From Stenotrophomonas bentonitica (GTDB lineage: Bacteria > Pseudomonadota > Gammaproteobacteria > Xanthomonadales > Xanthomonadaceae): a DNA stretch of 64,000 bases. Below the pieces are notes generated by a model that made no database searches, was not told the DNA's origin, and saw only the letters and a list, made by a program, of their open reading frames with translations. A program made the position numbers and the translations under genes. The stretch lies in contig NZ_PKQP01000006.1 of NCBI RefSeq assembly GCF_002887735.1, positions 186,001-250,000 on the forward strand, in the 5' to 3' direction. Positions 57,444-64,000 of this stretch are shown in pieces (the first letter of the stretch is position 1; each line of letters opens with the position of its first letter).

Positions 57444-58580
57444 ATGCAACGTGCCACCATCAAAGCCTGGTTCCTGATCCACAAGTGGACCAGCCTGGTC
57501 TGTACCCTGTTCCTGTTGCTGCTGTGTCTGACCGGCCTGCCGCTGGTGTTCGGCGAGGAGATCGCCCACCTCAGCGAGCCAGAGGTGGTCACCACGGCGG
57601 CCGATGCCACGCCGCGTGATCTGGACGCGCAGGTGCGCACCGCACTGGCGCAGTATCCCGGCGATGTGCCGCTGTTCGTCGGCTGGGATCCGGACGCACC
57701 CACCGTGTACGTCAACACCGGTGCACGTCCGGACACCCCGCCACCGCAGATGCACACCGCGCTGCTGCACGCGACCACCGGCGAGGTGCTGCCAGCCGCG
57801 CAGTTCAACGAAGGCGTGATGTACTTCCTGTACCGGTTGCACACCGATCTGTTCCTCGGCCTGCCCGGCATGTTGTTCATGGGCGCGATGGGGCTGCTGT
57901 TCGCGGTGGCGATCATCTCCGGCCTGGTGTTGTATGGCCCGTTCATGCGCAAGCAGCGCTTCGGCACGCTGCGCACCGGTCGCAACCGCCGGTTGGCCTG
58001 GCTGGACCTGCACAACGTGTTGGGCGTGGTCACCCTTGGCTGGGCACTGGTGGTGGGCGTCACCGGCGCCATCAACACCATCGCCAAGCCGCTGGAACAG
58101 GCCTGGCAGAGCGAGCAGCTCGGCGAGTTCGCGGCCCGCTATGCTGGCCAGCCACGGCCGGCCACGCTGGCCTCGCTGCAGGCCGCCGTGGACACCGCAC
58201 GTGCCGCCGAGCCCGGCATGCGCCCGGCCTTCGTCAGCTTCCCCGGTACCGGCTACAGCGGTGAACACCACTATGGCGTGTTCATGCAGGGCAACACCGC
58301 CCTCACCGAGCGCCTGTACCGCCCGGTGCTGATCGATGCCAAGACCGGCGAGCTCACCGCGCAACCGCAGTTGCCGGCCTACATGAGCGTGTTGCTGCTG
58401 AGCCAGCCGCTGCATTTCGGCGACTACGGCAAGCTGCCGCTGAAGGTTTTGTGGGCCCTGCTGGACCTGCTCACCATCGCGGTGCTGATCAGCGGCCTGT
58501 ATCTGTGGGTGAAGCGTGGCAGTACCGACGCACGCGTCACCGAGATCGAGCGCGCCGCGCAGCATGGGGGTGCCGCATGA
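57444..58580 (+). CDS. PepSY-associated transmembrane protein
   Basis: The 378-residue protein has a cytoplasmic start, HKWTSLVCTLFLLLLCLTGLPLVF (helix 1), a PepSY-type periplasmic part, then helices FLGLPGMLFMGAMGLLFAVAIISGLVL, LDLHNVLGVVTLGWALVVGVTGAINT and LLDLLTIAVLISGLYLWV. It resembles PepSY_TM reductases that move electrons across the membrane to ferric siderophores or flavins, possibly using haem via its histidines. Its end overlaps the next, truncated gene by four bases (ATGA). Confidence 0.9.
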   Translation: MQRATIKAWFLIHKWTSLVCTLFLLLLCLTGLPLVFGEEIAHLSEPEVVTTAADATPRDLDAQVRTALAQYPGDVPLFVGWDPDAPTVYVNTGARPDTPPPQMHTALLHATTGEVLPAAQFNEGVMYFLYRLHTDLFLGLPGMLFMGAMGLLFAVAIISGLVLYGPFMRKQRFGTLRTGRNRRLAWLDLHNVLGVVTLGWALVVGVTGAINTIAKPLEQAWQSEQLGEFAARYAGQPRPATLASLQAAVDTARAAEPGMRPAFVSFPGTGYSGEHHYGVFMQGNTALTERLYRPVLIDAKTGELTAQPQLPAYMSVLLLSQPLHFGDYGKLPLKVLWALLDLLTIAVLISGLYLWVKRGSTDARVTEIERAAQHGGAA

Positions 58581-58727
58581 GCGCACCGCTGAAACCACCG
58601 CGCAGCCCCTTCATCGCCCCGGCGTGGATTGCACTGGCCAGTGTGGTCGGCCTGGTCAGCGCGCTGATCGGCGACGGGCTGTTGGACCTCATCTCCTGGC
58701 TCGTGTTCACCGCGTTGATCGCGCAGT
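58577..58727 (+). pseudogene. 5' fragment of a small membrane-protein gene, cut by a junction
   Basis: The fragment starts ATGA-coupled to the PepSY gene and reads MSAPLKPPRSPFIAPAWIAL with a helix ASVVGLVSALIGDGLLDLIS, as expected for a short membrane partner of PepSY proteins. After about residue 49 (near 58725) the frame runs into the antisense strand of a DJ-1/PfpI gene and the residues become non-protein-like. The gene is therefore truncated and joined to foreign DNA. The remaining frame to 58960 is a read-through artefact. Confidence 0.6.
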
Positions 58728-59358
58728 TTCCATCGGCAACATACCGTCGATTCGGCAACCAGCGTATCCCGGGGTACTGCTTTCCCCGCGTCGCAGCGGT
58801 CGACCAATGCGCTGTGGCGCGCCGCCCATCGAACGTCCCCATCTGCGCGGCGACAAGGGCACCGTTGCAGATGGTGACGATCGTCGCCCCTTGGCCGGAC
58901 TGCCGCTTCAGCCACGCGATGAGGCGCGGCGTAGCGGCCTGCGCGGGCACGATGATGTAGTCGGCCCCCTCTGGATGGATCACATCGAACTGCGCCACCG
59001 TGGTGTCCGTCGCGATCCGGAACCGTGGCCGCCCGAGGTCGGTAAATGTGGACAGCGGCCCCGAGTCGAGCGTCACCGCGGACACATCGAGGGTGCCGGT
59101 ACGGGACAGGATCGCGAACGGCACCAGGAAGTCGCTGACCTCCACGCCGATGTTTTCCCCCACTACCGCGATCACGGCCCGGGCGCGGCCGGGCCTTGGA
59201 CGATAGGCGGGGATCACCGACTCCTGGGTGGAAGAGGCACTCGACGCTTGCTCGGCGGGTCGCGTCGTTCTGGCTGGCGGCCCTGCACATCCGGCCAGCA
59301 CCACAGATACAGCCCACGCGGCATGCAGACCGCGTCCAGGGAAAGTGCGAGATACCAT
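58728..59358 (-). pseudogene. Truncated DJ-1/PfpI-family lipoprotein gene
   Basis: On the minus strand the gene opens with a lipoprotein signal (MVSRTFPGRGLHAAWAVSVVLAGC), followed by a DJ-1/PfpI (GATase1-like) domain: ENIGVEVSDFLVPFAIL and the cysteine elbow IVTICNGALVAAQMG. It reaches PNRRYVADGN and then loses homology at 58728, where relatives continue with a VVTTTG-type segment and a final helix. The last third of the domain is missing, so it is probably non-functional. Confidence 0.65.
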
Positions 59359-59409
59359 GGTGCTGCCATAGGTAAGTGATGTGCGTGCATTCTTTGCTCC
59401 CTGCGCCAC

Positions 59410-59868: not shown

Positions 59869-60267
59869 CTACTTGATCTTCAGCTCCGGCAGAAGAGCGT
59901 CAACATCAACCAGCTCCAGGGACTTGACCATGTGCAGCGTCCCGTTCTTGTACTTGAGGAAGTGCGGACTCTTCAGATGCTGCTCGTAAGCCTCACGACT
60001 CGCATAGATTTCAAGGATCGTCAGCCGAGTAGGATCTTCCTTGTCAAAAACCGCATACAACGACAGCACGCCTGGCTCAAGCGCCATTGAGGCGCGAACT
60101 TCTTCCGCCAACTCGTCTCGATAGGCGGGCAGATGGTCTGCATCAACGGTGATCTTTGATAGTCGTGTCATCTGTGCCTCCTCCGCTCCAACACGGAAGG
60201 AGCACGCCAACATACTGAACAACGTGGCCATGATGATCTTGTTCACTTGGGTCTCCCAGGTGCGCAT
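59869..60267 (-). CDS. Exported ABM-domain protein
   Basis: The 132-residue product has an N-terminal signal (MATLFSMLACSFRVGA) and an antibiotic biosynthesis monooxygenase (ABM) domain: AYRDELAEEVRASMALEPGVLSLYAVF, TRLTILEIYASREAYEQHLKSPHFLKY. ABM domains are small ferredoxin-fold dimers, some oxidising quinones or aldehydes, others non-enzymatic. It is 28 bases downstream of the CMD gene on the same strand. Start at MRTWETQ; MATLFS is 36 bases shorter. Confidence 0.78.
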   Translation of the reverse strand: MRTWETQVNKIIMATLFSMLACSFRVGAEEAQMTRLSKITVDADHLPAYRDELAEEVRASMALEPGVLSLYAVFDKEDPTRLTILEIYASREAYEQHLKSPHFLKYKNGTLHMVKSLELVDVDALLPELKIK

Positions 60268-60295
60268 GACAGTAAAGAAGTCTTTCGCGCAGGCA

Positions 60296-60964
60296 TCATT
60301 CTTTCCGCACTTCCAGCTGAGTTTGAATGCCGACGCGAACACGTTCCGCGGCCTCCACGCCGACGTGCGCTTCGAGCACATCAGCCAGCTGGTACAAATG
60401 CTCTGGCCGCAGTCCGATGTTCATGCTCATGCCTATGTGAGACTGCAACTGAGGGCCCACCCCGGACATCGCCGCCAGCATGCTGACCGTGGCCAACTCA
60501 CGGCTCTGCCAATCCAGGTTGTCGCGCTCGAAGATGTCGCCAAACAGGTGCGTACGCAGATAGTCGTTTGCCTGCGGTGCGAAATCGAACAATGGCCCTG
60601 AGACCGGACCACCAGCCAGCTTGGTCTGATTCGCGGTGCCTGCAGCGAGCAACGCGGCGCCCTTGGGGATCGGCTTGGCAGGTTCGCGGCCAGCTTCATC
60701 CTGGATGCCCCTCTGCCTGCGCGCCTCCGCCACCTTCATCAGTCCGGTCAACGCGTTCAGGCTGCGCGGAAAGCCCGCATAGGCGTAAACCTGCACGAGG
60801 ATTTCTCGCGCTTCGGCAAGACTCAGCCCCGCGTCCAAGCCTTGATTCAGCGCCTCCCGAAGGCTATCCATGTTGCCGGCAGCTGCGGAGGCGCTGATCG
60901 GAATGATGGCTTGCTGGCGGGAATCCAGTTCGGTGGTAGGACCCCCGTCTGAGTTGACGTTCAT
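60296..60964 (-). CDS. Carboxymuconolactone decarboxylase-like protein
   Basis: The 222-residue protein carries two CMD (AhpD-like) repeats: ALNQGLDAGLSLAEAREILVQVYAYAGFPRSLNALTGL and ATVSMLAAMSGVGPQLQSHIGMSMNIGLRPEHLYQLADVL. The AhpD CxxC pair is not seen, so a decarboxylase or other CMD role is more likely than peroxiredoxin reduction. GAAGGAGAAGCT precedes the ATG at 60964. It is followed by the ABM gene. Confidence 0.85.
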   Translation of the reverse strand: MNVNSDGGPTTELDSRQQAIIPISASAAAGNMDSLREALNQGLDAGLSLAEAREILVQVYAYAGFPRSLNALTGLMKVAEARRQRGIQDEAGREPAKPIPKGAALLAAGTANQTKLAGGPVSGPLFDFAPQANDYLRTHLFGDIFERDNLDWQSRELATVSMLAAMSGVGPQLQSHIGMSMNIGLRPEHLYQLADVLEAHVGVEAAERVRVGIQTQLEVRKE

Positions 60965-61122
60965 AGCTTCTCCTTCGTGTGCGAAAGGCGGCATTGAGCG
61001 GATCGATGCGGACCGTGCCCGTAAACCAGTCCGTCGATCCTTTGATGGACGCTTGGGCGCCATGGCGTTTGATTTCCATGTAGCTCACCCATTTGTGGTG
61101 TGGTTGGGCATGCAACCAACGG

Positions 61123-61608
61123 CTACTCGGACTCAATCCGAACCGCGAGCGGACCTTCCGTGCGAAGGACCTGCAGTCCTCCTTCGATTCGACCCAGTCG
61201 GATCAAACCCTTCGAGTACGCAAATGGCCTGTGGAAAATCGCCAGATTTCCCCACGGCGCATAAAAGGCGATGTCGCCCGCCGCCGGCGTGAATCCCTCC
61301 GGCTCACCCGCCACACTGAGACGGCGCGGAAGCTGCGCGATTCTCTCGTTCGCGGCGTAGTCCTCAAGCTGCAGCGTCAGCGGCAACTGGGCGATGAACT
61401 CGCGCGCCGGGATACTGTCTTCCATGGTGGCCGACAGCACCTGATCGTTGATGATCAGTCGAATCTTCATGGAATGAACTTCCGGGTTTGACTCTACCTT
61501 CCTGGCTGCAATGGCGTGATGAGCGGGCTCGGCAGAGCATGCCGCTATTCCCCCGAATGCAAGCAGGAGGCAAAGTAGCTTTCCTGTGAACGACGTAACG
61601 CGCCTCAT
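61123..61608 (-). CDS. Exported cyclophilin-like fold protein
   Basis: The 161-residue product has a lipoprotein-like signal (FTGKLLCLLLAFGGIAAC) and a cyclophilin-like domain of the YlxF/PF18050 type: KIRLIINDQVLSATMEDSIPAREFIAQLP onward with GDIAFYAPWGNLAIFHRPF. Such proteins lack the proline-isomerase residues and have unknown roles; many lie near alpha/beta hydrolases. Its ATG overlaps the MFS stop (ATGA), so the pair is translationally coupled. Confidence 0.82.
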   Translation of the reverse strand: MRRVTSFTGKLLCLLLAFGGIAACSAEPAHHAIAARKVESNPEVHSMKIRLIINDQVLSATMEDSIPAREFIAQLPLTLQLEDYAANERIAQLPRRLSVAGEPEGFTPAAGDIAFYAPWGNLAIFHRPFAYSKGLIRLGRIEGGLQVLRTEGPLAVRIESE

Positions 61609-62816
61609 CAGCCCCGTGCCTCCACAGCGACCACCGGCCCGGGCGTGGTCGCCCGGTCGGACGCCGTGGCATAAGCGAGCAGCGCGGCGCACAGCAACAG
61701 GCCAGCACTGGCCAGGAACGTACTGGCAAAGCCGAGACTGTCAAACAGCAGTCCGCCCACGGTCGAGCCAAGTGCGATGGAGCACTGCACCACCGCCACC
61801 ATCAGCCCGCCGCCGGCCTCTGCGTTGTTGGTGAAAGTGCGGGCCAGCCAGCTCCACCAGCCCACCGGCGCGGCCGTTGCCAGCAGGCCCCATGCCGAGA
61901 GCAGTGCGGCGGTCGGCCAAAGCTGGTGCCCCAGTGGAACCAAGGCCACAGCAATGAGCGCCATCAAGGCTGGAATGGTCACCAGCGTTCGGTAAAGCCC
62001 ACGCCTGATGAACGCGCCAATGACGAGCGTGCCCACGAAGCCACTTATGCCGATGGCCAGCAGCACCAGTGGTACAGCAGACGCTCCTGCACTGGTCACC
62101 CGCTCCAGGAACGGCCGCACGTAGGTGAACAGGGCAAATTGCCCCATGAAGAAGGCACCGCAGGCAAGCATGCCAAGTGCCACCACACGCCGCCGGAACA
62201 GCGCGACCAAGCCGCCTTGTGACTGCCCGCTCTCCGCGGGCATGGAGGGCAGACAAACCCACTGCCATGCGAGAGCTATGGCAGCCACCGGCAGAAGGCA
62301 CAAGAAAGCGCCGCGCCATCCGATCATGCCGCCCAGGTAGCTGCCCAATGGCGCCGCAACTACCGTTGCAAGCGCGTTGCCGCTATTGAATATCGCCAAG
62401 GCTCGCGGAATCTTCGCAGCCGGAACCAGCCGCATTGCCGTTGCGGCAGACAGTGACCAGAACCCACCGATCACCACGCCGATCAGTGCACGCCCCATCA
62501 TGTAGACCGGATAGTTCGGAGCCAGGGCCACCACCACACCCGACACTGCCATCAATGCGGTGAGGATCAGCAGCAACGTTCGTCGATTCATGTTGCCCGC
62601 CAACCGGGAGATCAACAGGCTGGTCAGCACCGCAAAGGCTCCCGAAATGGCAATGCCGTACCCGGCAAGCCCTTCGGTCACGCCCAGATCTGCCGCCAAG
62701 GGAGTAAGCAGGCTCACCGGCATGAATTCCGAGGCTATCAACGCGAAGACGCACAACGTCATCGCGAGCACGCCCCCCCAGTTGGCGCGATCTGCAATCG
62801 CGTGTGTGCGGCTCAT
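61608..62816 (-). CDS. MFS transporter (DHA1-type, YdhP/AraJ-like)
   Basis: The 402-residue exporter has 12 helices and the DHA1 markers SEFMPVSLLTPLAADLGVTEGLAGYGIAISGAF and MGRALIGVVIGGFWSLSAATAMRL, with RLAGNMNRRTLLL as motif A. It overlaps the hydrolase gene upstream and the cyclophilin-like gene downstream by one to four bases. The substrate is unknown; location suggests an efflux partner of the hydrolase or its product. Confidence 0.9.
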   Translation of the reverse strand: MSRTHAIADRANWGGVLAMTLCVFALIASEFMPVSLLTPLAADLGVTEGLAGYGIAISGAFAVLTSLLISRLAGNMNRRTLLLILTALMAVSGVVVALAPNYPVYMMGRALIGVVIGGFWSLSAATAMRLVPAAKIPRALAIFNSGNALATVVAAPLGSYLGGMIGWRGAFLCLLPVAAIALAWQWVCLPSMPAESGQSQGGLVALFRRRVVALGMLACGAFFMGQFALFTYVRPFLERVTSAGASAVPLVLLAIGISGFVGTLVIGAFIRRGLYRTLVTIPALMALIAVALVPLGHQLWPTAALLSAWGLLATAAPVGWWSWLARTFTNNAEAGGGLMVAVVQCSIALGSTVGGLLFDSLGFASTFLASAGLLLCAALLAYATASDRATTPGPVVAVEARG

Positions 62817-63871
62817 TTCCCGGCCAGGCCGCGCTGGAAGAACGTCGTCAGTTTCTCGAAGGGAATCAGGTTGGCGCGGTCATACAGGTCCACGTGACCC
62901 GCACCCTTCACCCAGTAGAGTTCCTTCGGTTGGCCGGCCCTTTGGTATGCGTCTTCGCTGAACTCGCGTGAATGTGCGGCGTCGCCGGAGACGAACAGCA
63001 TCGGCCGGGGTGAGATGGTCTCGATGTCATTGAAGGGATAGAAGTTCATGAATTTGACCAAGCTGCTGAAGAGCGGCTGGGTCGTCAGCTCTGCCGTATC
63101 GCCCTTTGGCGTGTAGGCGCCGCGCGGGGTACGGTAGAAGTCGAAAAACTCGCGTTGGATGGCAGGGGTGTCAGCATCGAGTTTGTTCACCGTGCCTGGC
63201 ACGTACACTGCCGCCCCGCCCTTGAACTCTGCCAGGCGCTGGCCCGTTGCGGACTGGATCATCGTCTTGCGCTGCTCCAGCGATTGCCCGTTGTTCAGCC
63301 CCTGCCGTGCCGCCGCACCCATGTCGTACATGCTCACCGTAGCAATGGCCTTGATGCGCGGGTCGATCTTGGCGGCGCTGATCACAAAGCTGCCGCTGCC
63401 ACAGATGCCCAGGCCGCCAATCCGATCCGGGTCCACATAGGCCTGCGTACTCAGGAAGTCGACGGCCGCACTGATGTCGTCTGAATAGATTTCCGGCGCC
63501 ACCATGTGCCGCGGGGCGCCGCCGCTCTCTCCCCAGAAGGAAAGATCGATCGCCAGCGTAACGAAGCCCTGTTCGGCCAGCTTCTGCGCGTAGAGCTGCG
63601 AGCTCTGCTCCTTCACCGCGCCCATCGGGTGGCCAACCACCACGGCGGGCGCGCGGCCGCCGCGAGGCAAGCCATGAGGGCGGTACAGCGTGCCTACCAC
63701 TTCCATCTGGTACTGGTTGTGGAAGCTGACGCGCTCACCCGTGACCGTGGGGCTGCGGTAGAAGTTGTCTGCCCCGGCCGGACGGGCTGCCCCAGGCGTT
63801 TCGGCAGCCATGGCGGGAAGCGGAAGTACGTAGCTGGCAAGCAGCGCCAGCAGCAACGTGGTCGGTTTCAT
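62813..63871 (-). CDS. Secreted alpha/beta hydrolase with a cysteine nucleophile elbow
   Basis: The 352-residue product has a signal peptide (MKPTTLLLALLASYVLPLPAMA). The hydrolase shows PAVVVGHPMGAVKEQSS (oxyanion region), the elbow GLGICGSGSF with Cys157 where serine is usual, the acid near FVSGDAAHSREFSEDAY and the histidine in GAGHVDLYD. A cysteine elbow is used by dienelactone hydrolases, so lactone or ester substrates are plausible. It is first in the leftward operon with the MFS pump, and a putative regulator starts divergently at the right edge. Confidence 0.85.
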   Translation of the reverse strand: MKPTTLLLALLASYVLPLPAMAAETPGAARPAGADNFYRSPTVTGERVSFHNQYQMEVVGTLYRPHGLPRGGRAPAVVVGHPMGAVKEQSSQLYAQKLAEQGFVTLAIDLSFWGESGGAPRHMVAPEIYSDDISAAVDFLSTQAYVDPDRIGGLGICGSGSFVISAAKIDPRIKAIATVSMYDMGAAARQGLNNGQSLEQRKTMIQSATGQRLAEFKGGAAVYVPGTVNKLDADTPAIQREFFDFYRTPRGAYTPKGDTAELTTQPLFSSLVKFMNFYPFNDIETISPRPMLFVSGDAAHSREFSEDAYQRAGQPKELYWVKGAGHVDLYDRANLIPFEKLTTFFQRGLAGK

Positions 63872-63983
63872 GCGAGTGCGGCCTCGGTTGGGGGGACTGA
63901 GGTCGCCACGATAGGCTCCGCCCGCTACTGCGATAAGCCGGCTGAAAGTTGATGCATTGTTGAGTTGAGCTCACAATTGGTCC

Positions 63984-64000
63984 ATGAGCGCCGTGAAGAC
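63984..64000 (+). CDS. Possible start of a divergent gene, cut by the window edge
   Basis: An ATG at 63984 begins MSAVK and runs off the end. A TGAGCTCA palindrome (63966-63973) lies just before it, between it and the hydrolase operon. The layout resembles a LysR or TetR regulator divergent from its target operon, but five codons are too few to identify it. Confidence 0.2.

Follow-up and report, generated by a model that had tools for sequence, protein, structure and literature searches.

The DNA considered here, called the window below, is a stretch of 64,000 nucleotides from Stenotrophomonas bentonitica (contig NZ_PKQP01000006.1, positions 186,001 to 250,000), taken from a genome of 4.36 Mb. 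Positions 59869-63871 of the window hold an operon of five open minus-strand genes, encoding an alpha/beta hydrolase (HYD), an MFS pump, a cyclophilin-like protein (CYC), a CMD-family protein and an ABM-family protein. A LysR regulator gene is transcribed divergently from this operon, which we discuss as a possible protection system against reactive carbonyl compounds or other electrophiles. The locus comprises the following features:

62813-63871, minus strand: HYD, predicted secreted DLH-like alpha/beta hydrolase with a Cys157 nucleophile elbow and His326
61608-62816, minus strand: MFS exporter, NepI-like (Pfam and NCBIfam matches)
61123-61608, minus strand: CYC, PF18050, probable lipoprotein (Pfam, structure model; IAAC lipobox by eye)
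60987-61079, minus strand: cupin remnant, first 31 codons (comparison with relatives, where the gene is of the (R)-mandelonitrile-lyase family)
60986-60987, minus strand: deletion junction, about 0.9 kb missing relative to the related locus L039 (blastn break)
60296-60964, minus strand: CMD-family protein, 222 aa, without an N-terminal signal-peptide-like extension (Pfam, alignment)
59869-60246, minus strand: ABM-family protein, 125 aa, GTG start (Pfam; signal peptide by eye)
63872-63983, no strand: LysR/HYD intergenic region, 112 bp (alignment of seven genomes)
63984-64000, plus strand: first bases of the LysR gene, the rest lying beyond the window end (complete in L003:9985-10875)
58724, no strand: point where homology with the same-species locus stops, inside a DJ-1/PfpI open reading frame

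A preliminary description, made from the letters of the window, had proposed five same-strand genes of these families with coupled starts for the first three. Both proposals hold: the frames are open, all five proteins exceed the curated Pfam cut-offs, and the coupling of HYD, MFS and CYC is borne out by the overlaps ATGA (HYD/MFS) and TGATG (MFS/CYC). The likely starts of the last three genes are ATG 61608 for CYC (161 aa), ATG 60964 for CMD and GTG 60246 for ABM, and the ABM start in relatives aligns to the latter codon. The genes of the locus are not chance open reading frames, because the ratio of nonsynonymous to synonymous substitution (dN/dS) is low against relatives, at 0.03-0.25 in pairwise comparisons of HYD, MFS, CMD and LysR; for ABM, two relatives give 0.09 and a third, with few changes, gives 0.50. 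Terminator-like sites occur near the shuffle level (5 versus 3.7 in shuffles), and a search for sigma-70-like promoters found 0 versus 0.9 in shuffles.

The divergent regulator, at first only suspected, proved to be a complete LysR gene of 296 aa with HTH_1 and LysR_substrate domains. It starts at 63984, 112 bp from HYD, and was thus mostly out of sight of the preliminary description; the contig extends 969 bases past the window end. The LysR/HYD region was aligned for seven genomes. Counted from LysR, its first 60 columns include 15 of LysR coding sequence, and 52 of the 60 are identical; the HYD side of the intergenic region is more variable. Words counted across 64 intergenic regions next to LysR, without a shuffle control, pointed to no agreed operator. 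We infer that this LysR protein regulates the operon. Additional LysR sequences were seen at two other places. At L040:7466-7669, downstream of CMD, a further LysR gene (87% identical) is present as a piece of 68 codons, which adjoins open reading frames resembling, by eye, aldehyde-oxidase-type Fe-S and FAD subunits. The window's own genome has a second LysR locus at L158:4876-7172 (G000:C44:143875-146171), in which a LysR gene (50% identical) and a cupin gene are transcribed away from each other. The cupin is (R)-mandelonitrile-lyase-like and its start resembles a signal sequence; an SDR/epimerase-like gene and an adjoining quinone-oxidoreductase-like gene, both named by eye, accompany the pair.

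HYD scores 36.9 bits against DLH (PF01738; gathering score 21) and is homologous to PA2218 (PDB 2hdw, 1.7e-76) and YcjY (5xb6, 4.5e-50), two members of the same family that the PDB labels only as hypothetical or uncharacterised. The elbow cysteine is aligned in both. All 37 aligned proteins have Cys157 and His326, and in the structure model (pLDDT 84) Cys157 lies between strand 146-156 and helix 158-169. The early identification of a secreted cysteine-elbow hydrolase agrees with this DLH-type elbow and with an export signal recognised by eye. Residue 297, which follows strand 291-296 in the model, is Asp or Glu in many relatives and Ser or Ala in some.

The pump scores 120.8 bits against MFS_1, above the Pfam cut-off, and its top NCBIfam matches are exporters, chloramphenicol exporters among them. 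The first of them is the purine-ribonucleoside efflux pump NepI (NF007578), an identity that was rejected at 277.5 bits versus a cut-off of 584. Taken with HYD, these matches bring up the inactivation of a signal or an antibiotic, with MFS pumping drugs and HYD acting either as a UilS-like quorum-quenching lactonase or as a drug esterase. The acyl-homoserine lactonase UilS (NF047920) is indeed the top NCBIfam match of HYD (1.5e-18), but it reaches only 67.5 bits versus an equivalog cut-off of 400, and the pump scores 135.4 versus 400 as Cmx/CmrA, so neither identity was accepted. Neither version accounts for the companion genes described below (cupin, CMD, ABM and those of aldehyde-reductase type), and we hold this explanation to be rather unlikely.

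CYC scores 108.1 bits against PF18050 (Cyclophil_like2; gathering score 22.7). Its model has a mean pLDDT of 85, with low values in the first 40 residues and a confident fold beyond residue 40. This cyclophilin-like fold is shared with TM1367 (VIA Z 14.7) and with the Pictet-Spenglerases KslB (15.4) and McbB (14.0), at 2.0-2.3 Å over 113-118 residues and 14-19% identity, and ordinary cyclophilins stand lower among the matches (Z about 12). The PF18050 sequence profile matched two solved structures with E values of 0.25 and 0.85, which were judged to be chance. Likeness of fold is no evidence of function; the listed co-substrates of KslB, alpha-ketoglutarate and succinic semialdehyde, are carbonyls, and by analogy they may serve as a lead for CYC and nothing beyond. 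An IAAC lipobox, read by eye, suggests that CYC is probably a lipoprotein.

CMD matches PF02627 with 62.8 bits in two stretches (gathering score 23), and ABM matches PF03992 with 60.2 bits (gathering score 23.1). More specific names were rejected for both, namely the 4-carboxymuconolactone decarboxylase PcaC (TIGR02425) for CMD, at 48 bits versus a cut-off of 155.7, and LsrG (NF007791) for ABM, at 18.5 versus 135. Most of what the CMD frame of the window covers upstream of 60964 is left over from a deleted cupin gene and read out of frame; the neighbouring minus-strand frame is the start of this cupin gene, which is intact in L039. The blastn alignment of the two loci breaks at 60987, and the window lacks cupin 1 beyond its first 31 codons, the whole of cupin 2 and the greater part of the CMD signal peptide. 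A same-species genome shares this deletion. The window copy is therefore a deletion derivative without cupins, a fact that was likewise invisible to the preliminary description. Of the proteins thought to be exported, HYD, CYC and ABM do have export signals by eye, but the CMD copy of the window has none; the other nine aligned CMD proteins all have a signal-peptide-like N-terminal extension (by eye). Export of this copy was accordingly rejected, and the protein is probably cytoplasmic.

Other deletions were observed in relatives. One, at L046:6577-6692, begins where MFS ends, stops shortly ahead of the CMD start used in the window and removes CYC and the cupins, and another, at L042:7525-8541, breaks CYC and cupin 2. 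Together with a split ABM gene in L159 and with what the window has lost (both cupins and the signal peptide of CMD), these cases might indicate that the locus is decaying in the window genome and has no coherent present function. But all five frames and the LysR gene are open, dN/dS is low for most pairs (though it also covers the time before the deletion), and the new start of CMD has an AAGGAG ribosome site ahead of it, all of which makes decay quite unlikely.

Within Stenotrophomonas, 91 genomes were searched; HYD was present at 1e-150 or better in 18 of them, the window's included, and the neighbourhoods in the other 17 were read. Divergent LysR, HYD and MFS are kept in all 18. The five-gene order occurs in seven (the window, L038, L039, L042, L159, L160 and L164), if L042 with its broken CYC and L159 with its split ABM are both counted. 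L039 and L159 are the fullest, with divergent LysR followed by HYD, MFS, CYC, cupin, cupin, CMD and ABM, and both cupins whole. In three of the 18 (L167-L169) an aldehyde-reductase-type gene (ADH) stands between LysR and HYD, giving divergent LysR, ADH, HYD, MFS, cupin and CMD. The remaining genomes hold subsets of the genes, the contig of L161 ending 1.3 kb past the pump. In gene content, LysR-HYD-MFS is thus constant in the genus while CYC, the cupins, CMD and ABM are variable, and ADH, aldo/keto-reductase (AKR) and SDR-type genes come and go in relatives.

This pattern also bears on the idea of a catabolic operon for an aromatic or lactone growth substrate, in which HYD and CMD would act as enzymes of the ring-cleavage type. 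HYD matches DLH and CMD matches the family of PcaC, both of them folds of the beta-ketoadipate type. However, CMD scores below the PcaC cut-off, the N-termini of HYD and of CMD and most cupins of relatives look like export signals by eye, the top matches of the pump are exporters, and the accessory genes vary around a constant HYD-MFS pair. A catabolic role therefore appears unlikely.

When seven loci were compared with the window by blastn, homology stopped near the LysR stop and near the end of ABM or CMD, and the flanks were mostly unrelated. The G+C content of the operon is 61.7% versus 67.5% for the window. Because of this broken synteny and the difference in G+C content, we infer that the operon is probably a transferable islet moving horizontally between species. 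Against an islet, the two loci in each of four pairs have a flank stretch of 0.8-1.5 kb in common, in displaced position. The operon had been said to end at a junction; homology with the same-species locus stops only at 58724, about 1.1 kb beyond the operon. The DJ-1/PfpI open reading frame in which this point lies (58537-59409) matches part of the FtrA profile.

For the distribution beyond the genus, an alignment of the pump only was scanned against GTDB genomes. It found at least 595 relatives, of which the best 80 loci were analysed; three contigs, matched by length, are shared with the genus survey (L042 = L050, L160 = L051, L166 = L056). Neighbours were accepted at identity thresholds of our own choice (LysR 40%, HYD 35%, CYC and CMD 40%, cupin 45%, ABM 30%, ADH 70%), each at 40% query cover or more, with ADH at 50% in the density control. 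These 80 loci span Stenotrophomonas, Pseudoxanthomonas, Lysobacter, Pseudomonas, Cupriavidus, Janthinobacterium, Enterobacterales, Arthrobacter and others. Divergent LysR is present in 66, HYD in 54, CYC in 36, ADH in 16, a cupin in 13 (plus 6 on the opposite strand), CMD in 7 (plus 4 opposite) and ABM in 3. HYD and CYC occur together in 27, and all five genes in three, namely L050 (CYC broken), L051 and L108 from Pseudomonas putida ASAD, which reads divergent LysR, HYD, MFS, CYC, cupin, CMD, ABM. Among neighbours outside the query set, within about 7 kb, SDR genes were found at 18 loci, AKR genes at 13 and an aldehyde-oxidase-type large subunit at 8; ADH, AKR or aldehyde oxidase is present at 30 of the 80.

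Compared with the outer flanks of these loci, the DNA up to 3.5 kb from the pump is denser in HYD (16.6-fold), LysR (9.6-fold), CYC (8.9-fold), ADH (4.9-fold), CMD (3.7-fold) and the cupin (2.6-fold). A chance grouping of the set is rejected by this enrichment and by the recurrence in the genus and at pump loci. The preliminary description had held that a lack of co-occurrence elsewhere would speak against its proposal; the genes do occur together again, both in other genomes of the genus and in P. putida. Close ADH relatives (E 1e-140) occur in only 3 of 143 genomes of the class, and E. coli genomes gave no match at megablast level.

Plasmids carry several arrangements of these genes. A Leclercia plasmid from a human isolate has divergent LysR with CYC, MFS, ADH, HYD, AKR, SDR and SDR; a Janthinobacterium plasmid has divergent LysR with HYD, MFS and CYC; a P. 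oryzihabitans plasmid has MFS, HYD, AKR and CYC on one strand and two LysR genes, two cupins and CMD on the opposite one; and an Achromobacter plasmid has divergent LysR with CYC, cupin, cupin and CMD. Separately, a Klebsiella pneumoniae plasmid (L132:6866-13480) shows a CYC-like gene, an MFS gene and a short 5' ADH-like piece immediately before a klebsidin lasso-peptide cluster.

We propose, with a probability of about 0.52, that the operon is a LysR-controlled and probably mobile means of protection from a reactive carbonyl compound or other electrophile, perhaps of plant, fungal or bacterial-competitor origin. The compound may be an aromatic or unsaturated aldehyde, a quinone or a lactone. 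LysR would sense it at the 112-bp divergent promoter region and switch on HYD-MFS-CYC-CMD-ABM. The pump, to judge from its family, would move the compound or an adduct from the cytoplasm to the periplasm, where the secreted cysteine hydrolase HYD would open ester- or lactone-type groups, and exported CYC and ABM, in relatives also exported CMD and cupin, would process the products. Most detoxification steps would thus be periplasmic. The preliminary description had suggested that a toxic lactone, quinone or antibiotic-like compound is hydrolysed and removed. Detoxification combined with export fits the neighbours. As to the substrate, the recurrent neighbours, being of aldehyde-reductase, aldo/keto-reductase and aldehyde-oxidase types, none past an equivalog cut-off, point to carbonyls rather than to that choice.

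Several findings weigh against this proposal. No ADH, AKR or aldehyde-oxidase representative passes its NCBIfam equivalog cut-off (Ahr 313.8 versus 470, PaoA 283.4 versus 322, PaoC 97.2 versus 1180), so that the carbonyl assignment is one of nearest families. The window's operon itself holds no carbonyl reductase, 50 of the 80 pump loci are without ADH, AKR and aldehyde oxidase, and the SDR superfamily is too large to weigh much. Cupin and CMD show the weakest neighbour enrichments, and ABM is rare, found in 1 of 274 genomes of the class, the window's own. Eight of the 80 loci have no HYD, CYC, cupin, CMD or ADH on the pump strand and no AKR, and the 80 loci, as the best of at least 595, are related to each other. 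At residue 297, the expected place of the triad acid of HYD, conservation falls below 90%. For none of these genes was a substrate, an expression record or a phenotype found.

The cupins lost from the window raise a different question. All 11 cupins tested from related loci pass the (R)-mandelonitrile lyase model NF049940 (168.6-193.6 bits; cut-off 140). Bacterial cupin hydroxynitrile lyases are known mainly as biocatalysts. The L039 cupin shares 96 of 130 aligned residues with PDB 4bif, which we take to be the Granulicella tundricola cupin hydroxynitrile lyase. A cupin-fold hydroxynitrile lyase from this species is mentioned in the literature (PMC5413884). The fuller operon might then handle cyanohydrins, its cupin splitting cyanogenic aldehyde adducts to aldehyde and hydrogen cyanide, a step that the window copy would have lost; the aldehyde-reductase-type genes nearby would be in keeping with it. 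But a lyase activity seen in vitro may differ from what the enzyme does in nature, the cupin is absent from most of the best 80 pump loci, and the ten recurrent unmatched gene clusters, four of which were put to Pfam, included none recognised as handling cyanide. Cyanohydrin handling is, on balance, very unlikely.

The general kind of system to which carbonyl or electrophile protection would belong, a regulator with enzymes and a pump against a reactive poison, is already known. YqhC-YqhD/DkgA is an electrophile and aldehyde detoxification operon with a dedicated regulator. NemR/NemA-GloA, as described in a review, likewise combines a dedicated regulator with enzymes for reactive electrophiles (PMC7464077). 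Unlike both types, the present loci have a LysR regulator, a core of secreted cysteine hydrolase and MFS pump, and small enzymes that mostly bear putative export signals; no NemA or glyoxalase was seen in them. The same review places a carboxymuconolactone decarboxylase gene among the hypochlorite-induced genes of Burkholderia cenocepacia biofilms.

The open-licence PMC literature yielded no study of this gene set. A resembling cluster has been reported, however, in Burkholderia terrae BS001 (AKAUv1_2870056-60), where genes for a predicted alkyl hydroperoxidase, a cupin, LysR, an epimerase and an exported alpha/beta hydrolase rise with a fungus at day 8, the first four by log2 3.81-4.51; the authors' own reading is oxalate and energy (PMC5209427). 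The cupin, LysR and exported hydrolase are the points of likeness, and the predicted alkyl hydroperoxidase may belong to the CMD/AhpD family, whereas the cluster has an epimerase and the paper's account of it mentions no pump. The LysR-cupin-SDR locus L158 of the window's genome looks closer to it than the operon does. The rise of this cluster with a fungus lends some support to carbonyl or electrophile protection, limited by the fact that the likeness is one of the paper's description and not of sequence.

A wider proposal, which we regard as unlikely, is that these loci make up an undescribed mobile, LysR-governed, periplasmic carbonyl-processing system, in which exchangeable exported enzymes are arranged around one MFS pump. 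The proposed exchangeable enzymes are the cysteine hydrolase, CYC with its Pictet-Spenglerase-type fold, CMD, ABM and the cupin. The same loci would be the natural setting of bacterial cupin hydroxynitrile lyases, the real job of the cupin being a carbonyl step and not the release of cyanide. The window itself has modest weight in this, because it is one deletion derivative. If carbonyl or electrophile protection is the right explanation, the gene set, which is widespread in environmental Pseudomonadota and has versions on plasmids, would be a stress and competition trait open to direct test, and bacterial cupin hydroxynitrile lyases would gain a genomic setting in which to ask about their natural role.

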